Source: Cynocephalus volans (taxonomy: Eukaryota; Chordata; Mammalia; Dermoptera; Cynocephalidae). From it: a stretch of 64,000 nt of DNA. A model generated the notes under the pieces. It was not told the origin of the DNA. It was given only the letters and a program-made list of their open reading frames with translations, and searched no databases. The translations under genes and the position numbers were made by a program. The stretch is from NCBI RefSeq assembly GCF_027409185.1, contig NC_084472.1, positions 17,966,524 to 18,030,523 on the forward strand. The letters run 5' to 3'. Each line of letters starts with the position of its first letter. Position 1 is the first letter of the stretch. Positions 1,910 to 63,870 of the stretch are shown one piece after another.

Positions 1910-2520
1910 AAATTTATAAAATTTATAAAATGTATTAAAAATCACAATAGAATGAACACTCACTACCCACCCAAATAAAAAACACTGAAGACTCTTCTCT
2001 CCTCCCTGATGCTAACGTCCCTCCTTTCAAAGGTAACCATTATTCTGAATTTTGTGTTCATCATTCCCTTGCTTTTATTTATAGTTTTACCATAATGCCT
2101 TAACTCCTAAACAATATATTGTTTAATTTTGTACACTTTAAACCTTTGTGTAAGTGGAACAACACTCTGTATTCTTCTCTAATTTACTGTTTACACTCAA
2201 TGTTACGTTCCTGCAATTGATCTGCTTATTGTGTGTAGCTATAATTCATTCATCTCACTGCTTTTTAGTATTCTATTATATTAATATACCACACATTTAA
2301 AAAAAATAAATTCCACTACGTATGGACATTTGAGATGTTTCTAGTTTTTTTACTCCTTTAAACAGCAGTGATAAACATGTATAAGAGTTTCTCTGGGAAT
2401 AGAATTGTCGAAGCATAGCTTTTGTACATATTTTACTTTCCAAACGATGCTAAATTTTTTCCGAAGTGATTATATTTGTACTTATACCAGCAATGTATAT
2501 GTTTAGTGGCAACTATTTAA
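1910..2520 (-). mobile_element. Old LINE-1/HAL1-like fragment, antisense
   Basis: Diverged sequence with reverse-strand L1-type phrases: transfer-type AAGGTAACCATTATTCTGA, AATTCATTCATCTCACTG and TGGACATTTGAGATGTTTC. The subfamily is not assignable by eye. Confidence 0.55.
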
Positions 2521-3835
2521 TATGGCCATGCTTCTTTAAAATTTTTTTATTTTAAAATTATTTTTAGACATTCAGAAAAGTCACAAAAGTAGTACAAGGT
2601 ATCCAAAAATGAAATAAAGAAGACAATTTTATTTATAATACCACCAAAAAGAATAAAATACTTAGAAATGAATTTGACAAAAGAAGTGCAAAGCTTATAC
2701 TCTGAAACTGTAAAATATCATTGCAAGAAATAAAACAAGACGTAAATAAGTAAAAAGACATTCATGTTCATGAATTGGGAGATTTATTAAAATTTTATGA
2801 TGGCAATATTCCCCAAAACTGATGTACAGATTTCATGCATTTCCTACCAAAATCTCAGCTGGCTTCTTGGCAGAAATTGAAGAGCAGATCCTAAAATTCA
2901 TGTGGAATTTGAGGAACCCAGAATAACCAAAACAATATTTAAAAAGAGGAACAAAGTTGGAGGACTCTCACTTCCCCTTTTAAGATACAGTAAGCTACAT
3001 AAGCTACAGTAATCAAGAAAGTGTGGTACTGACATAGGCTAGACATATAGATCAGTGAAGTAGAATTGAGAGTCCAGAAATAAACCTTCCTGTTTGCAAT
3101 CAATTAAGTTTTGACCAGGGTGCCAAGACAACTTGATGGGGGAAAGAATATTCTTTTCAACAAATGGTGCTTGGACAACTGAATATCTAGATGCAAAAGA
3201 ATGAAGTTGGACTCCTTCCTCACAAAAAGTACCTTGAAATGGATCAAAGACTAAATACAAGAGGTAAAACTATAAAATTCCTAGAAGAAAACAGGTGTAA
3301 ATTTTCATGACCTTGGATTATTCATTAATTATTTCTTAGATATGACACCAAAAGCACAAACTTTTATAAATAGATAAACTGGACATCATCTAAATTGAAA
3401 ATGTTTGTTCTTCAGAGGACACCATCAAGAAAGTGAAAAGATAAGCCACAGAATCAAAGAAACTCTTTGAAAATCATATATCTGATAAGGGACTATATCT
3501 ACAATCTTTAAAGACACATTACAACTCAATAATAAAAAGACAAATAGCCTAATGAAGATATAGGTGAAGGATCTGAACAGGCATTCATCCAAAGAAGATA
3601 AATGAATGGCCAATAAGCACATGAAAAGATGCTCAACATCATTCACAATTGGAGAAATGAAAATCAAAACCTCAATGAGATATTGCCACACATCCTGCTA
3701 GAATGGCTATCATGCAAAAGACAGAAAATAACAATTGTCAAATATGTGGGAGAAACTGGAACCTCATGCACTGCTGATGGGACTGTGAAATGGCACAACC
3801 ACTTTAGAAAACAGTCTGGCAGTTGCTCAGATGAT

Positions 3836-3910
3836 TAAAGAGTTACCATATGCTGTCTACGGCCATACCACCCTGAACGCGCCCGATCTCGTCTAAAGAG
3901 TTACCATATG
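3836..3910 (+). repeat. 17-bp target-site duplication around the 5S fragment
   Basis: Perfect copies of TAAAGAGTTACCATATG at 3836-3852 and 3894-3910. The upstream edge (ATT/AAAG) resembles the L1 endonuclease TT/AAAA site. This points to L1-machinery insertion. Confidence 0.9.
3853..3894 (+). pseudogene. 5S rRNA 5' fragment, tailless retropseudogene
   Basis: Positions 3855-3894 equal the first 40 nt of vertebrate 5S rRNA with no mismatch, from GTCTACGGCC to GATCTCGTCT. A 17-bp direct repeat TAAAGAGTTACCATATG flanks the insert (3836-3852 and 3894-3910; one T is shared with the rRNA end). There is no A-tail, and the rRNA is cut off well before its 3' end. The host is an L1 fragment whose sequence resumes after the duplication. 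The promoter box A/IE/C region of 5S is absent, so it should be silent. Two extra bases (CT) precede the rRNA. Confidence 0.93.
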
Positions 3911-4489
3911 TTATCCGCAATTTCACTACAAGTTATGAAATGAAAGTGAAAACATGTCCACACAAAAACTCGTGTAAAAATGTTCATAGCAGTATTATTC
4001 ATAATAGGCAAAAAGCAGAAACAACCCAAACGTCCATCAACTGATGAATGGATAAATAAAATGTGGTATATCCATTCAGTGGAATATTATTAGTCAGCAA
4101 TAAAAAGAAGTATTAATGCATGCTACAACATGGATGAAACTCAAAAACATTATTCCATGTGAAAGATGCCAATCACACAGACTGCATATTGTATGATCCC
4201 ACTTACGTGAAGTGTCCAGAATAAGCAAATCTAGAGAGACAAAGTACATTGGTGATTGCCTAGGGATGGGAGGTTGGGGGTTGAGGGACACAGGGAATGA
4301 GGGCAATGGTTAAAGGGTGTGGGATTCTATTTGGAGGTGATGAAAATGTTCTAAAATTGATTGTGGTGGTTGTTGTCCAACTCTGTAAATATCCTAAAAG
4401 CCATTGTATTGTACATTATAAATGGGAGAATTATATGTAAATACATGAAGTACATATCTCAATAAAGCTGTTAAAAAATAGTAGACTGT

Positions 4490-6149: not shown

Positions 6150-7630
6150 GAGATACATATATATTTTCTTCCATCCACTTCTTGCAATTATCTTGTTTTT
6201 AAAACTTTTATTAATTTGGTATGGTTCCATTTTATTTTGGCTTTAATTTGTATTTTCCATATTTTTAACACAGTTGAACATCTTTTTGTATGTTTATTGG
6301 CAATTTGGGTTTCTTCCAGGAAACTTTTATTAGTTTTTTTGCCATTTTTGGAGTAATTTATGTATTCTGAATTTTAATATTTTGTTAGTAATACTTGTTA
6401 CAAATTTGGGAGGCTTGTCTCTTTATTTAGAATGTCTTTGATGGGGCAAACAGTTGCAAGTCTGTAAGAGAAAAAAAAAAAGAATGTCTTGGATGAATAG
6501 AAGTTCTTAAGTTCAATTTATCTATCCTTTGCCCATTTGTCCTTAAGAAACCCTCTATGAGATGATAAAGTTGTTCTCCTGTGTTGTCTCCTAAAAGTTT
6601 TAGAATTTTGTCTTTTACATTTAAGTTTTTAATCCATTTGAAATTGTACTTTGTGTATGAGGTAAAGTAAGATCTAATACAATTTTTTTTCATATGGTGT
6701 CTTAGTTCGTTTGTGCTGCTATAAGAAGATACACAGGACTGCCTCCAAAGGGGACAGAAATGTTGTATTCTCACATGGCAGAAGAGACAGAAAGGCAAAA
6801 GGACAGAACACTGTGAAGCTCCTTTTATAAGGGTCTTATCCCATTCACAAGGAGTAGTTCTCATGACCTAATCACCTCCTAAAGGCCCCACCTCTTAATA
6901 CTGTGGCACTAGGGATTAAGCTTTGACATGGATTTTGGAGGGGACACAAACACTGAAATCATAGCATATGGATAACCAGTTCCTCAGCACCATTTATTGA
7001 AATGCCCATCCTTTTGCCACTGATCTGCAGTGCAAGCTTTATCATAAATAGTCTCCACCCTGTGCCAAAACCACTTTGTGTTACTGATTCTTATTCTAAT
7101 TCTTAATTTCCAGTGAGGCAAATCTCTCCCACCTTTTTTACTTCAGGTCTGTCTGAACTATTCTTGGTTATTTTCTCTGCATATACTTTTAAACAACAAA
7201 TATTCAAGTAAAAAAATTGTTTTAATTTTAATTGGATTACATTGAATCTCTAGATAAATTTGGGGAGAATTTAATTTTAACTATATTTTATGATGTAGTT
7301 CTATATAGGTTTTCTTTAACATCATTAATACTTGTAGTTTAATCATGTTGTCCATAAGGGTCTTATAGATACTTTGTAAGATTTATTCCTAGATAGTTAA
7401 TATTTTTGATATTACTATAAATTTTTAAATATATATATATTTCCTAAGCATTTCTGTTGATATATAGAAATGCAACTAATTTTTGTAAATTGATTTTGAA
7501 TTCATCAACTTAACTAGATTCTTATTAATTTAATTGATTTATCTATGGATTATATTGTATTTTCTATACAGACATAAACAAGTATTATTAATAAATAATG
7601 ATAATTTTGTTTCTTACTTTACAATCATAA
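6150..7630 (-). mobile_element. LINE-1 ORF2/3' fragment, antisense, split by an LTR
   Basis: Reads as reverse-complement L1 ORF2: ACATCTTTTTGTATGTTTAT, CCAGTTCCTCAGCACCATTT and TTTATTCCTAGATAG. The MaLR-like LTR at 6698-6966 cuts it; the L1 text resumes right after (GGATAACCAGTTCC). Frames are degraded. Confidence 0.75.
6698..6966 (-). mobile_element. Solo MaLR-type LTR (MLT1/MST-like)
   Basis: A 269-bp unit with TG...CA ends and an exact 5-bp target duplication TATGG (6693-6697 and 6967-6971). In reverse complement it carries the familiar ERVL-MaLR LTR phrases GGTGGGGCCTTTAGGAGG, TGATTAGGTCATGAG and CTTATAAAAGGAGCTTC. No internal retroviral sequence remains. Confidence 0.85.
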
Positions 7631-8501: not shown

Positions 8502-41678
<33,177 letters not shown>

Positions 41679-48837: not shown

Positions 48838-51800
48838 CTATTAAAAAAAAGGGTGGGGGGAGAATGTGGGAGGTTAAAAAAGTTAGTATTTCTAATCATT
48901 GAAACTGGAAAAACCTGTCAAATACAACTTGACTAGAAAGAATTTAGGTAATGCTATATGTTCTAAAAATTGTTGAAAATAACTGCTCATCTAAAATGTT
49001 ATAACAAGGTTAAAAATTTTTAAATAAACGCAACAATGTAAAAATGTTTACCCAGCATCTTTTCAGGATAAAAATACTCAACAAGTCACAGTACAAAGAA
49101 CTTCAACCTGATCAAAGGCATCAAGAAACATCTGAGTTAATCGCAAAAGAATGAAAACTGTTCCTTGAAGATTGTGAACAAAGAGGTAAGGCTGCTCCTG
49201 CCTCTTCTATTCATTATTGTACTGGTTCCAGCCAGGGCAATTAGATGAGGAAAAGAAATAAAAATCACCCAGATTGGAAAGAATGAAGTAAAAACTACCT
49301 CCTTTGCAGATGACATGATCTTGAACATTAATAAATCCTAAGGAATTCACGAAAAAACTTATAAGACCTAATAAATGAGTTTGGCAAAGATGCATATTTA
49401 ATATTGATATTCATAAATCAGTTGTATTCCTATACACTTGTAATAAACAATCCAAAAATGAAATTTAGAAAAAAATTCTATTTACAATAACATCAAAAAG
49501 AATAAAATACTTAGGAATAAACATAAAAGAATTATAAAACCTGTAAACTGAGAACTATAAAAAATTGTGGAAATAAATTAAAGACCTAATAAACAGAAAA
49601 ACATGCCATGTTTATTAGTCAGAAGACTGAATATTGTTAAAATGGCATTACTGTACACATTGATCTACAGCTGGCTTCTTTGCAGAAACTGACAAGCTGA
49701 TCCTAAAATTCACATGGAAATACAAGGCATGCCAAATAGCCAAAACAATCTTTAAAAAGAACAAAGTTGGAGGGGTCACCATTCCTTATTTCAAAACATG
49801 CTACAAAGCTACAGTATACAAAATAGTGTAGTATTGGCATAAGAATAGATATATAGACAAATGTAACAGAATTGAGAGTCAAAAATAAACCCTCACATTT
49901 ATGGTCAATGATTTTTGACAAGCATGCCAAGACCATTCAGTGGGAAAGAGCAGTCCTTTTAACAAATGGTGCTGGGAAAACTGGATATCCACATGCAAAA
50001 GAAACAATACCCCCATGTAATATCCTACCTCACATTACAAAAATTAATTCAAAATAAAGACTAAATGTAAAAACTAAAACTATGAACTCTTAGAAGAAAA
50101 CATAGGCATGAATCTTTGTGGCCTTAGATTAGGCAATGGCTTCTTAAATATGACACCAAAAACAGAAGTGACAAAAGAAAAATATACAGAAATTGTACTT
50201 CATCAAAACGAAAAACTTTTGTGCTTCAATAACACCATCAAGAAGACGAAAAGACAAGGCCCGTGGCTCACTTGGGAGAGTGTGGTGTTGATAACACCAA
50301 AGGCCACAGGTTCAGATCCCTATATAGGGATGGACGGTTAGCTCACTTGGGAGAGCGTGGTGCTGACAACACCAAGGGTTAAGATCCCCTTACCGGTCAT
50401 CTTTAAAAAAAAAAAAAAGAAAAAGATAAAAAGACAACCACACAAAGGTAAAAAATATTTGCAAATCACATATATGACAATGGACTTGTATCCAGAATAC
50501 ATAAAGAGCTATTATAACTATGAGGAAAAGATAAATAAACCAATTTTAAAATCGACATAGTATGTGAATAGGCATTTCTCTAAAGAAGATATACAAGTGG
50601 CCAATAAGCACATAAAAAGATGCTCATTAATCATTAGAAAAATGCAATCAAAACCACAATGAACTAAGAGTTCACACCCACTAGGATGGCTAAAATAAAA
50701 AACAACAACAAGCACTGAAGATAATGTGGAGATATTACAACCCTCATATACTCATACTGCTAGTGGGACTGTAAAACGATGCAGCCAATGTGGAAAACAG
50801 TTTGGCAGTTCATCAAAATGTTAAACGTACAGTTACCACACAGCTGAAACATTCTACTCCAAGGTATATACCGAAGAGAAATAAAAACATCGATTTGCAC
50901 AAAAATTTGTACATGCAGGCTCATAGCAGCGTTATTCATAATAGCCAACCTGTGTTAATCTAAATGTCTATCAGCTGATGAATGGATAAACAAAATGTGG
51001 TATACCTACATAGTGTTATATTATTTGGCAGTTAAAAAAAAAAAAAGGGACACACTGATACATGCTACAACATAGATGATCCTTGAAAACATTATGCTAA
51101 GTGGAAGAAAAACAGTCACAAAAGGTTTTATGCTGTAGGATTCCATTTATATGCAACATTCAGAATAGGTGAATCCACTGAGACGGAAAGAAAATTGGTC
51201 ATTGCTGGGGCTGGGAATAAGGAGGAAATGGGGATTCACTGCTAAAGGGGATGGTTTTTTTTTGTGGTGCGGGGGATGGAAATGTCTTGAAATTAGATAG
51301 TGGTGCTGGTTGCATAGCCTTCTGAATACACTAAAACCTACTTAATGATAAACTTTAAAAAGATGAATTTTATGGCATATAATTATACCTTAATAAAGCT
51401 ATTATTAAAATTTTTTAAAAACATTTAGAAAGTATACTGCCTACTAGTAAAATCTTCATGTTGTAACCTTAACAAGGAATGCTGGACTCTAATAACAGGA
51501 AGACATACTATATAGGAAGAAATAGTAAATTTAAAAAGTAGAAACTGTGTTTCAACAAGCTTATATAGGCAATTTCACTATTACAAAGAACAAACACAAC
51601 TACTATACTGTTTTTTGTTGTTGTTTTTAATAAACTAGAACCATCTTGTAGTTATCACAAGATTTAAAGAAGAGGCAATAACCCTCATTTAGGACTATGA
51701 TTTGATCAGTTAATTTTCCATATTAGTTCTGAAAGAGCTAAAAACAGACCTGACTCTTGTCATAAAAAAGGTGGACAGATCTGAACTCTTCTGCATCATT

Positions 51801-54800
51801 ACTAATTGATAAAATAAGGGGAACAGATCAGATATACATTAAGATACTGAGATTCTTAGAACAATGGATTATTTTGAAAGCTATATTCACAGATAACAGC
51901 ACACAAGAATTCTATGAATAAACAAAAATAGACTGACCTAAAAACCTTTTTTGAATGATTAATTTTAACCTCCTCCATTAATCCTTTATCAAAGATGCTT
52001 TATAGAACAAAAAACAAAACATAGGATTTTTGTCTGAGTCTCCCCTCGATGTCTTTGATAAACGATCAAGTGACAAAAGAAGAAAATCTGGGCTGGCCAG
52101 TTAATTCAGTTGGTTAGAGTGTGGTGCTGATAATGCAAGGTCCAGGGTTCGATCCCTGTACCAGCCAGCCACCAGAAAAAAAAAAGAAGAAGAAAAACTA
52201 ATAAGAGACTTACATAGTTTACAAATAATATTCTTAAATTAAGACAAATTTCTCTAAAAGCTAAACTCCCAAGAAACTTTCTACATTTCTTCAGTTATGT
52301 TTAAAATTCTCCAGCATCGAACACAGCTTGAAATAAGTGGGTTATTTTGACCTAACATCATTACTTACAAATAAATAAGTCAAAATGGTTTAATAATATT
52401 TAACCTACAGTGCTTTCTTCCTCCTCAGATTAACTTCACTTAAAAAGTACTTACAGATCCAATACACTGATAATCATGCAAAATTTATAATTAATACAAA
52501 TTAAGGTTATACATTTATGATTAATTAAATGTCAACTTTATACTAAAACTCTGCTTAAATCTTAACGTACTAAAAATGATTTGAAGTATTACATTCAAGT
52601 TACCTTAGGCATTCAATCATGCGAGAAGCAATTTTCTTCCGACGCATCATGCTGAATACCCATATTCGACTGATCCCACAGATTGCAGGCTCTGGCAGTG
52701 TTGAGCAGCACCAGGCTTTCTGCCTTTCAAATCTGACTTTTTCTTCCTCTGATCTGATAACTGGAAGTTTTTCTTCTATAACTCTGTAGCCCTGCCGGTG
52801 TCAAAGTCGGGGGGAAATTTTTAAAGTGAGACTATTAATTAGCAATCGTTTAGTATTGATCTTGTTGATGAGGTCACTACATTTGTCTGGCTTCTTAACA
52901 AACTATGGGGACCACTCTCACTTTTAGGAAACAAACTAACCTGTATCTACATTCTGTTCTAATTCACTTACTTGTTATGTAACCATGAGAGGAAATCACT
53001 TAATTTCTATAAACTTTGGGTTCCTCACTCATAAATTGGGCATATCTATCATGTCTCATTTTGAGATTAAATAAGGCAATATACACAAGGCATTTTGCCA
53101 TCGTGAGAGGCCCATAACTGGAACTGAATGTTAGTTCTCTCCACCTCCCACAATCTAAGGACCAGCAAACGTACATGTTAAGGTCTCAGCAATAATAACT
53201 ATTCCTGTGATTGCTGCCATAGTTCTAAGGTTCACAGCTGTGTAAAAACTAGGAATAGGGATGGCAGAGAAATCAAGAATTTAGAAAGGCCCTTTCCCCA
53301 CACTCAGATCTCTTAAAAAAAAAAAAGTACTTTAAAAAACGTAAATCTCCTCTACCAGTCTAACTGCCAAAAAAGACATGACCAGACTTCGGATAGGACA
53401 GGGTATAAAACTTAAGCAATAAGACAACACTATTAATAGCTAACAAAAACAACCCAAACAAACATTATGTAGTTATCTTCTAGTTTAAACACTGCTACAA
53501 GTCATTTTTGGAATGAGGTGGAATAGAAATTTAAAAACACAACAGTTTAATTTGAGTAAAATTAACTCAATCACAGTATGGCAAAATTCTATGAGTTATT
53601 TTAAAGCAACTATTTAAACCAATTTTGTTATTACAGCAAGAATCATAAGAACTACACAATTTCAGGCTGAATTGTTAAACATGTAGCTTAACATACAGAA
53701 ATAAATTCATGTAGACTTGTTTTGATTTTTACTTTATTAGAAAGTTTTATGGTAAGGGCCGAGCCCGTGGCGCACTCGGTAGAGTGCTGCGCTGGGAGCG
53801 CAGCAACGCTCCCGCCGTGGGTTCGGATCCTATATAGGAATGACCGGTGCACTCACTGGCTGAGTGCCGGTCACGAAAAAACGACAAAAAAAAAAAAAAA
53901 AAGAAAGTTTTATGGTAAAGCATACATTTGAAGGCACCTATAACTGTGCTAAAAGATATCAACTGAACAGAGACACATACAATGTACTGAATTCATGAGG
54001 GAGAATTCAGCTAAAAAAAAACACAGAATTAAAGTATGCCTCAAAGTGAGCATGATTAGGGAGACCAGAAACTTCTGTTCTCTTAGGTTGGTCTCAATTA
54101 CTACATAACACTCATAATGTGAACATATCTTTACTGTGATTCTATCTTTTGTTTTTTGTACAATTTGGCTCCTAAACACATGCCAACTACTCACCTAGAG
54201 CTCAATCAAAGAAGTGATCTATTCTAGGGGTGGGCAAACCTTCTATAAATGCCCAGATAGTAAGTATTTTAGGCACTGCAGCCTAAAATTGCAACTACTA
54301 TATTGCAACTACTTAACCCTGCCTTTGCAGTATGAAAGCAGTCATAAACAAATGTGCAAGCAAATGGGTATGGCTGTTACAAGAAAATTTTAGTTACAAA
54401 AGCGAGCTGGTTTTTGCCTGCTATAGAGTTTGCCTACCCTTGATTTATTCCAGTGCTGGAGGGACTAATTGAGAAAGACATTACATTATTATTCAATAAG
54501 GAAACTTACTGAAGAAACTTCAACAGTACTTTTGATTCTACAGAATTTTTATGTCTTGAGAAACTGATTCCCATACAAGATACAACTTCACTATGATAAA
54601 GAATCATACACAAGAATTCTTAAATTCACACTCTTCCTTATACAAAATGTAGACAAATTTATTAGGATTATGTTATTCAAGATTACACAGTAAACTCATT
54701 CAACACCAAACTACTAATGAGTACTCTTTGAAAACCACTTACCCACTGGATATGTTCTGCAATTAGGCAGCCAACTACTTTTTTGTCATTAGAAATAAAG

Positions 54801-63194: not shown

Positions 63195-63870
63195 ACCACT
63201 CTTGTTGGTATTTACATCCAAAGGAGCTAAAAACTTATGTCCACACAAAAACCTGTACACAGATGTTTATAGCAGCTTTATTCGTAACTGCCAAAATGTG
63301 GAAGCAACCAAGATATCCTTCAGTAGGTGAATGGATAAACTGTGGTGCACCCAAACGGTGAAATACTATGCAGCACTAAAAAGAAATGAGCTACCAAGCC
63401 ATGAAAAGAAACGAGGGATCTTTAAATGCATATTACTGAGTGAAAGAAGCCAATCTGAAATGGCTACATTCTGTATGATTCCAACGGACATGACATTCTG
63501 GAAAAGGTAAAACTACAGAGACAGTAAAAAGAACAGTGGTTGCTAGGAGTTAAGGGGGGAGGGAAAAATGAATAAGCAGAGCACAGAAGAATTTAGGGCA
63601 GTGAAACTACTCTGTATGATACTATAATGGTGGATACTTGTCACTATACATTTGTCAAAACCTAGAATGTAGCCAAGAGTGAACCGTATTATAAACTATG
63701 GACTCTGGGTGATAATGACGTGTCAATGTAGGTTTATCAACTGTAACAAATGTAGCACTCTGGTGACAGATGTTGCGAATGGGGGAGGTTATGCATGTGT
63801 GGAGTAAGAGAGTATATGAGAACTCTCTACTTCTTTCTCAATTTTGTTGTGAATCTAGAAGTCTATTTAA
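63195..63870 (+). mobile_element. LINE-1 3' fragment (L1ME/L1MC-like)
   Basis: Typical end-of-L1 text: TTTATAGCAGCTTTATTCGT, GTGAATGGATAAACTGTGG, GAGTGAAAGAAGCCAATCTG and CAGTGGTTGCTAGGAGTTA. It lies at the right edge of the window in an ESCO1 intron. Confidence 0.82.

Follow-up and report, generated by a model that had tools for sequence, protein, structure and literature searches.

The window, a stretch of 64,000 nucleotides from the colugo Cynocephalus volans, contains the first 40 nucleotides of 5S rRNA, lying in sense orientation inside the 3' part of what we take to be an old L1 element. The 5S piece is flanked by two copies of a direct repeat, and another L1 copy in the window spans the corresponding site and lacks the piece altogether. 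The features on which the analysis is built are the following, all on the plus strand.

2601..4478 (+), host L1 (3' part), delimited by its blastn alignment with the L1 copy at 49450-51409 (two pieces, 69% and 64% identity)
3835..3840 (+), L1-endonuclease-like target TT/AAAG, with five of six matches to TTAAAA; the minus-strand nick would lie between 3836 and 3837
3836..3852 (+), left copy of the target site duplication, TAAAGAGTTACCATATG; 16 bp if its first T is given to the flank
3853..3854 (+), two extra bases, CT, between the left duplication and 5S nt 1 (direct reading)
3855..3894 (+), 5S rRNA nt 1-40, identical at 40/40 positions to human 5S, with five CpGs intact
3894..3910 (+), right copy of the target site duplication, whose first T doubles as 5S nt 40 (repeat comparison)
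50598..51144 (+), L1 paralogue that spans the insertion point and has no 5S there (paralogous empty site), 68% identical over 566 columns to the joined flanks of the host

The 5S segment and its junctions

By exact comparison, positions 3855-3894 are identical to nt 1-40 of human 5S (40/40), the reference being the 118-nt human 5S sequence that PMC6962460 prints for an expression construct. The match begins exactly at nt 1, behind the CT, and ends sharply: at nt 41 the window has A where 5S has G, and nothing of 5S is found beyond nt 40. An earlier note on this DNA had proposed a 40/40 match to the 5' end of 5S that starts almost at the RNA 5' end and stops abruptly at nt 40; all three points hold, and the start can be sharpened to nt 1 itself. 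The identification is founded on this exact match and not on Rfam, since the alignment of model RF00001 (5S) to 3836-3910, in which model position 1 falls at 3855, remains below threshold (10.5 bits, E 6.4, cut-off 38). Neither the Rfam scan of the whole window nor that of 3600-4200 listed 5S, and a tRNA finder reported 0 genes. Outside the insert, which was masked for this comparison, the window matches the 40-mer exactly over no more than 10 nt; for 200 composition-shuffled 40-mers the longest exact match is 14 nt (mean 10.2), so a chance origin of the 40-nt match can be set aside. The masked window likewise holds no exact 5S match longer than 10 nt, whether from nt 1-40 or from nt 41-118. 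Searches for the exact 40-mer in viral contigs and in prokaryote genome contigs gave 0 matches each, a result that is uninformative for a mammal.

The repeats flanking the 5S piece are perfect when compared directly (17/17, 3836-3852 against 3894-3910), while the repeat search gave 22 bp at 91%. The duplication may be counted as 16 or 17 bp, because the right repeat opens with the very T that is nt 40 of 5S. An exact 16-bp repeat at a spacing of 58 occurs at 2 positions of the window, as expected from this one 17-bp repeat alone. The right copy follows directly upon nt 40, which leaves no A-tail, and the left side shows no T-run of the kind expected from a tailed insertion in antisense orientation. 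Both the perfect 17-bp duplication and the missing A-tail had been claimed before, and both are confirmed. The duplication starts at a TT/AAAA-like endonuclease site, TT/AAAG, a feature of L1-mediated insertions; on the plus strand of the window, 1081 of 63995 positions (1.7%) score at least 5/6 against TTAAAA, as do 32 of 1420 (2.3%) within the host L1. Extra bases at the 5' junction are not rare in L1-driven insertions, being given as 12.4% for 554 full-length Alu insertions in PMC2912911.

The host L1 and the age of the insertion

That both elements are L1s, and old ones, is presumed from known L1 3'-end sequence and from their mutual divergence; the two copies are 64-69% identical by blastn. 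The L1 is continuous on both sides of the 5S insert, and both sides align to the paralogue. A query in which the host flanks were joined, with the insert and one repeat copy removed, aligns across the site, where the paralogue carries a single GTTAAACGTACAGTTACCAC stretch without any 5S; the comparison is thus with a single paralogue, the other L1-like matches in the window lying outside the site. Since the covering paralogue lacks the 5S piece, the latter is an insertion later than the L1 and not a part of it, in agreement with the order of events put forward in the earlier note. Just 5' of AGTTACC, the host L1 has TTAAAG and the paralogue has the longer TTAAACGTAC. Both repeat copies carry the short form, which fits the duplication of an L1 that had already diverged.

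Further stretches of the window, at 63230-63482 (+), 2241-2395 (-) and 6229-6305 (-), also match the host L1 near the site by blastn and none of them spans it; that at 2241-2395 falls under the nhmmer inclusion threshold. A search of viral contigs for more L1 copies, using an L1 motif, gave 0 matches. The window also contains six tRNA-like stretches, at 16624-16694 (-), 27823-27887, 39325-39378, 50266-50324, 50338-50399 and 52114-52167. The first is above the Rfam tRNA cut-off, and each of the remaining five aligns to it over 56-68 columns at 78-85% identity. The six have the look of a SINE family derived from tRNA, in which one copy is apparently dimeric. The family is probably tRNA-Ile-like, which would be in keeping with colugo SINEs. 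The dimeric copy interrupts the paralogous L1 at 50258-50429, where the alignment stops at 50258 and resumes at 50422 or 50429, and it is a second nested insertion in an L1 of the same type.

All five CpGs of the 5S 40-mer are intact, whereas in the surrounding L1 (3000-3835 and 3912-4500) CpG occurs 0.28 times per 100 bases, where the base composition would predict 3.0. The retention of five CpGs out of five in such a CpG-poor host makes the insertion look much younger than the L1. Over 72 sites (the 40 of 5S and 2 x 16 of the repeat, among them 10 CpG positions) there are 0 changes, or two if the repeat is read as 22 bp. The corresponding rough 95% upper bound on divergence is 4.1%, 2.4% or 1.7% for a CpG rate of x1, x6 or x10, on the assumptions that the rate is neutral and that the source gene did not differ from human 5S, and leaving aside that the case was chosen for its good match. 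The earlier note had called the insertion datable, which stands relative to the L1 and goes no further. Of the two explanations it offered for the exact identity, recency or chance preservation, the first is favoured by the absence of change at 72 sites and by a bound of 1.7-4.1% compared with L1 copies that are 64-69% identical. This reckoning, rough as it is, places the 5S insertion well after that of the L1.

Routes to the insertion and its 3' end

Taken together, the length of the duplication, its site, the start at nt 1 and the absence of a tail suggest that L1 inserted 5S in trans by target-primed reverse transcription, and the 5S copy was very probably pasted by the L1 machinery. The L1 endonuclease, known here only by its footprint, would have nicked the minus strand at TT/AAAG inside the old L1, and the L1 reverse transcriptase would have copied a 5S template from nt 40 to the 5' end. 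About two untemplated bases may then have been added at the 5' junction, and filling of a 16-17 nt stagger would have produced the direct repeat that is observed. No function is seen and none is proposed; the insert is a passive by-product.

The repeat search that extends to 22 bp at 91% identity suggests a variant of the same route, in which the repeat is 22 bp long (TAAAGAGTTACCATATGYTRTC), has since acquired two transitions, and overlaps at its end with the GTC of 5S, so that no untemplated bases are required. That both differences are transitions suits this variant, yet it needs 2 changes within 5 bases against none at the other 72 sites; it is regarded as unlikely. Repair of a double-strand break, with a piece of 5S cDNA or RNA captured as filler and L1 playing no part, could supply both the additional CT at one junction and the 1-nt microhomology at the other, but is very improbable, since the duplication of 16-17 bp is perfect and begins at an endonuclease-like site, and the RNA sequence starts precisely with its nt 1. 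Less credible again is that the 5S piece is native to the L1 subfamily or stems from a 5S-derived SINE. Such SINEs are described from various organisms in PMC13174262; here nothing is attached past nt 40, the L1 paralogue is free of the 5S piece, and the masked window offers no exact 5S match above 10 nt. An assembly or library artefact deserves next to no weight, since misassembly would hardly be expected to bring together a duplication, an endonuclease-like site and the 5' end of an RNA.

Within the preferred route of L1-mediated insertion, the 3' end admits two readings. Nt 40 falls within the hairpin loop that closes helix III; this loop starts at position 35 in the Rfam structure line, and nt 40 is its final base in the minimum-energy fold. 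Truncation in such a loop is usual for the tailless class as characterized by Noll et al. (PMC5322556). The 5S and the target overlap by 1 nt at the 3' junction, and 1 or 2 of 8 positions agree between them at the breakpoint, depending on where the nick is placed; the mean over 5S start points from nt 21 to nt 110 is 1.9/8, and some points reach 4 or 5 of 8. An overlap of 1 nt often arises by chance and falls short of the reported 2-18 nt; this speaks mildly for an RNA that had been cut in the loop beforehand and against internal priming of an intact 5S. A template cut in loop C needs no pairing with the target. For this one locus, copying of a 5S fragment from an end that had been cut in loop C is considered slightly more likely than internal priming. 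The fuller proposal is that the template was a ready-made 5S half, cut after U40 and copied end-to-end from a nearly unpaired primer, and that some tailless copies thus record cleaved rRNA fragments of the germline and not internal priming; it is advanced tentatively, at a little under an even chance.

The beta-domain of 5S is the arm formed by helix II/III and loop C. In human prostate cancer stem cells, 5S has been reported to be cleaved, mostly in the beta-domain (PMC6962460), which speaks for a pre-cut template. The same text stresses 3'-end fragments of 5S, its 5' fragment being a construct, and this emphasis counts against a pre-cut template. In PMC13174262, the 5S/L1 chimera ends at nt 46 and nt 90 sit in loops C and D and the former is read as possible targeted processing, again in favour of a pre-cut template; nt 40 belongs to the same loop region, C, as the nt-46 end. 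Noll et al. describe targets that match the RNA by complementarity over its final 2-18 nt, favour internal priming, found no truncated 5S or U2 copies with oligo(A) tails, and had small-RNA libraries without 5S fragments ending at the major breakpoints (PMC5322556); the last two negatives also count against a pre-cut template. Short microhomologies at the 3' junctions of tailless tRNA copies, described in PMC2912911, indicate that an overlap of 1 nt may be less exceptional than one would judge from the range of 2-18 nt.

Internal priming, in which the nicked target strand anneals within loop C of an intact 5S, belongs to the same class and subdivides the best explanation rather than opposing it. 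It is the model preferred by Noll et al. 2015 (PMC5322556), and a nick placed one base upstream would let U40 pair with the final A of the primer. A single common nucleotide at the junction speaks against it, as does an agreement of 1 or 2 of 8 at the breakpoint, which is the chance level; elsewhere in nt 21-110, 4 or 5 of 8 are attained. Internal priming is accordingly held to be a genuine possibility, albeit one somewhat short of an even chance.

Place among known small-RNA retropseudogenes

Schmitz et al. (2004) are reported to have been the first to describe the tailless class, in their case for tRNAs. The assignment of the present insert to the tailless retropseudogenes of 5S rRNA is made with high confidence, a judgement that applies to the class and not to the step at the 3' end. 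Of eight features checked, drawn from PMC5322556, six are present. The 5' end is complete to within 5 non-matching nt (start at nt 1, 2 extra nt), the 3' truncation is at least 10 nt with a length of at least 30 nt (40 of 118 nt kept), identity to the source exceeds 69% (40/40), the duplication is 8-35 nt and at least 70% identical (17/17, or 22 bp at 91%), no oligo(A) tail intervenes (the duplication comes directly after nt 40), and the truncation lies in a loop or single-stranded region (the hairpin loop closing helix III). The target, TT/AAAGAGT, compared by eye with the class consensus TT/WAAAAWW, agrees in TT and in 5/7 bases past the nick. Complementarity of the target to the terminal 2-18 nt of the RNA is absent, the overlap being 1 nt; PMC5322556 gives this property as typical and does not use it as a filter. 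The proposal that the insert is of the tailless class is thereby borne out at six of the eight features.

Noll et al. 2015 count 555 tailless 5S copies in human, or 194 per Gb (PMC5322556), and at that density about 0.012 would be expected per 64 kb, or one in about 80 stretches of that length. A word search of one open-licence library for colugo, SINE and 5S rRNA together found no paper. The class is known and well described, and this locus is an ordinary further member of it, very well preserved. Taken alone it matters little, as one more copy in a class with 555 human 5S examples. It may be used as a single clean data point on internal priming versus pre-cleaved RNA, and possibly as a presence/absence marker within the host lineage.

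Like the tailless 5S retropseudogenes of PMC5322556, the insert keeps the RNA 5' end, has its 3' truncation in a single-stranded region, is tailless, and has a duplication within the 8-35 nt range at an L1-like target. It differs from them in having 1 nt of complementarity instead of 2-18 nt and the target TT/AAAGAG instead of TT/WAAAAWW. The L1-made copies of U6 and U3, compared here solely by way of the description of U6/L1 and U3/L1 chimeras in PMC13174262, are likewise small non-coding RNAs mobilised by L1, and their source RNA is different. With the 5S/LINE-1 chimeras of PMC13174262, the insert shares a 5S that starts at nt 1 and is often cut in loop C. In those chimeras the 5S is typically antisense, is joined to the L1 5' end in one event, and commonly ends at nt 46 or 90. 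A chimera was considered for this locus and rejected, as the junction of 5S to an L1 5' end is lacking and L1 runs on both sides in alignment with the paralogue. Unlike the chimeras, the 5S piece described here is in sense orientation, lies inside an older, continuous L1, has a duplication of its own, and ends at nt 40.
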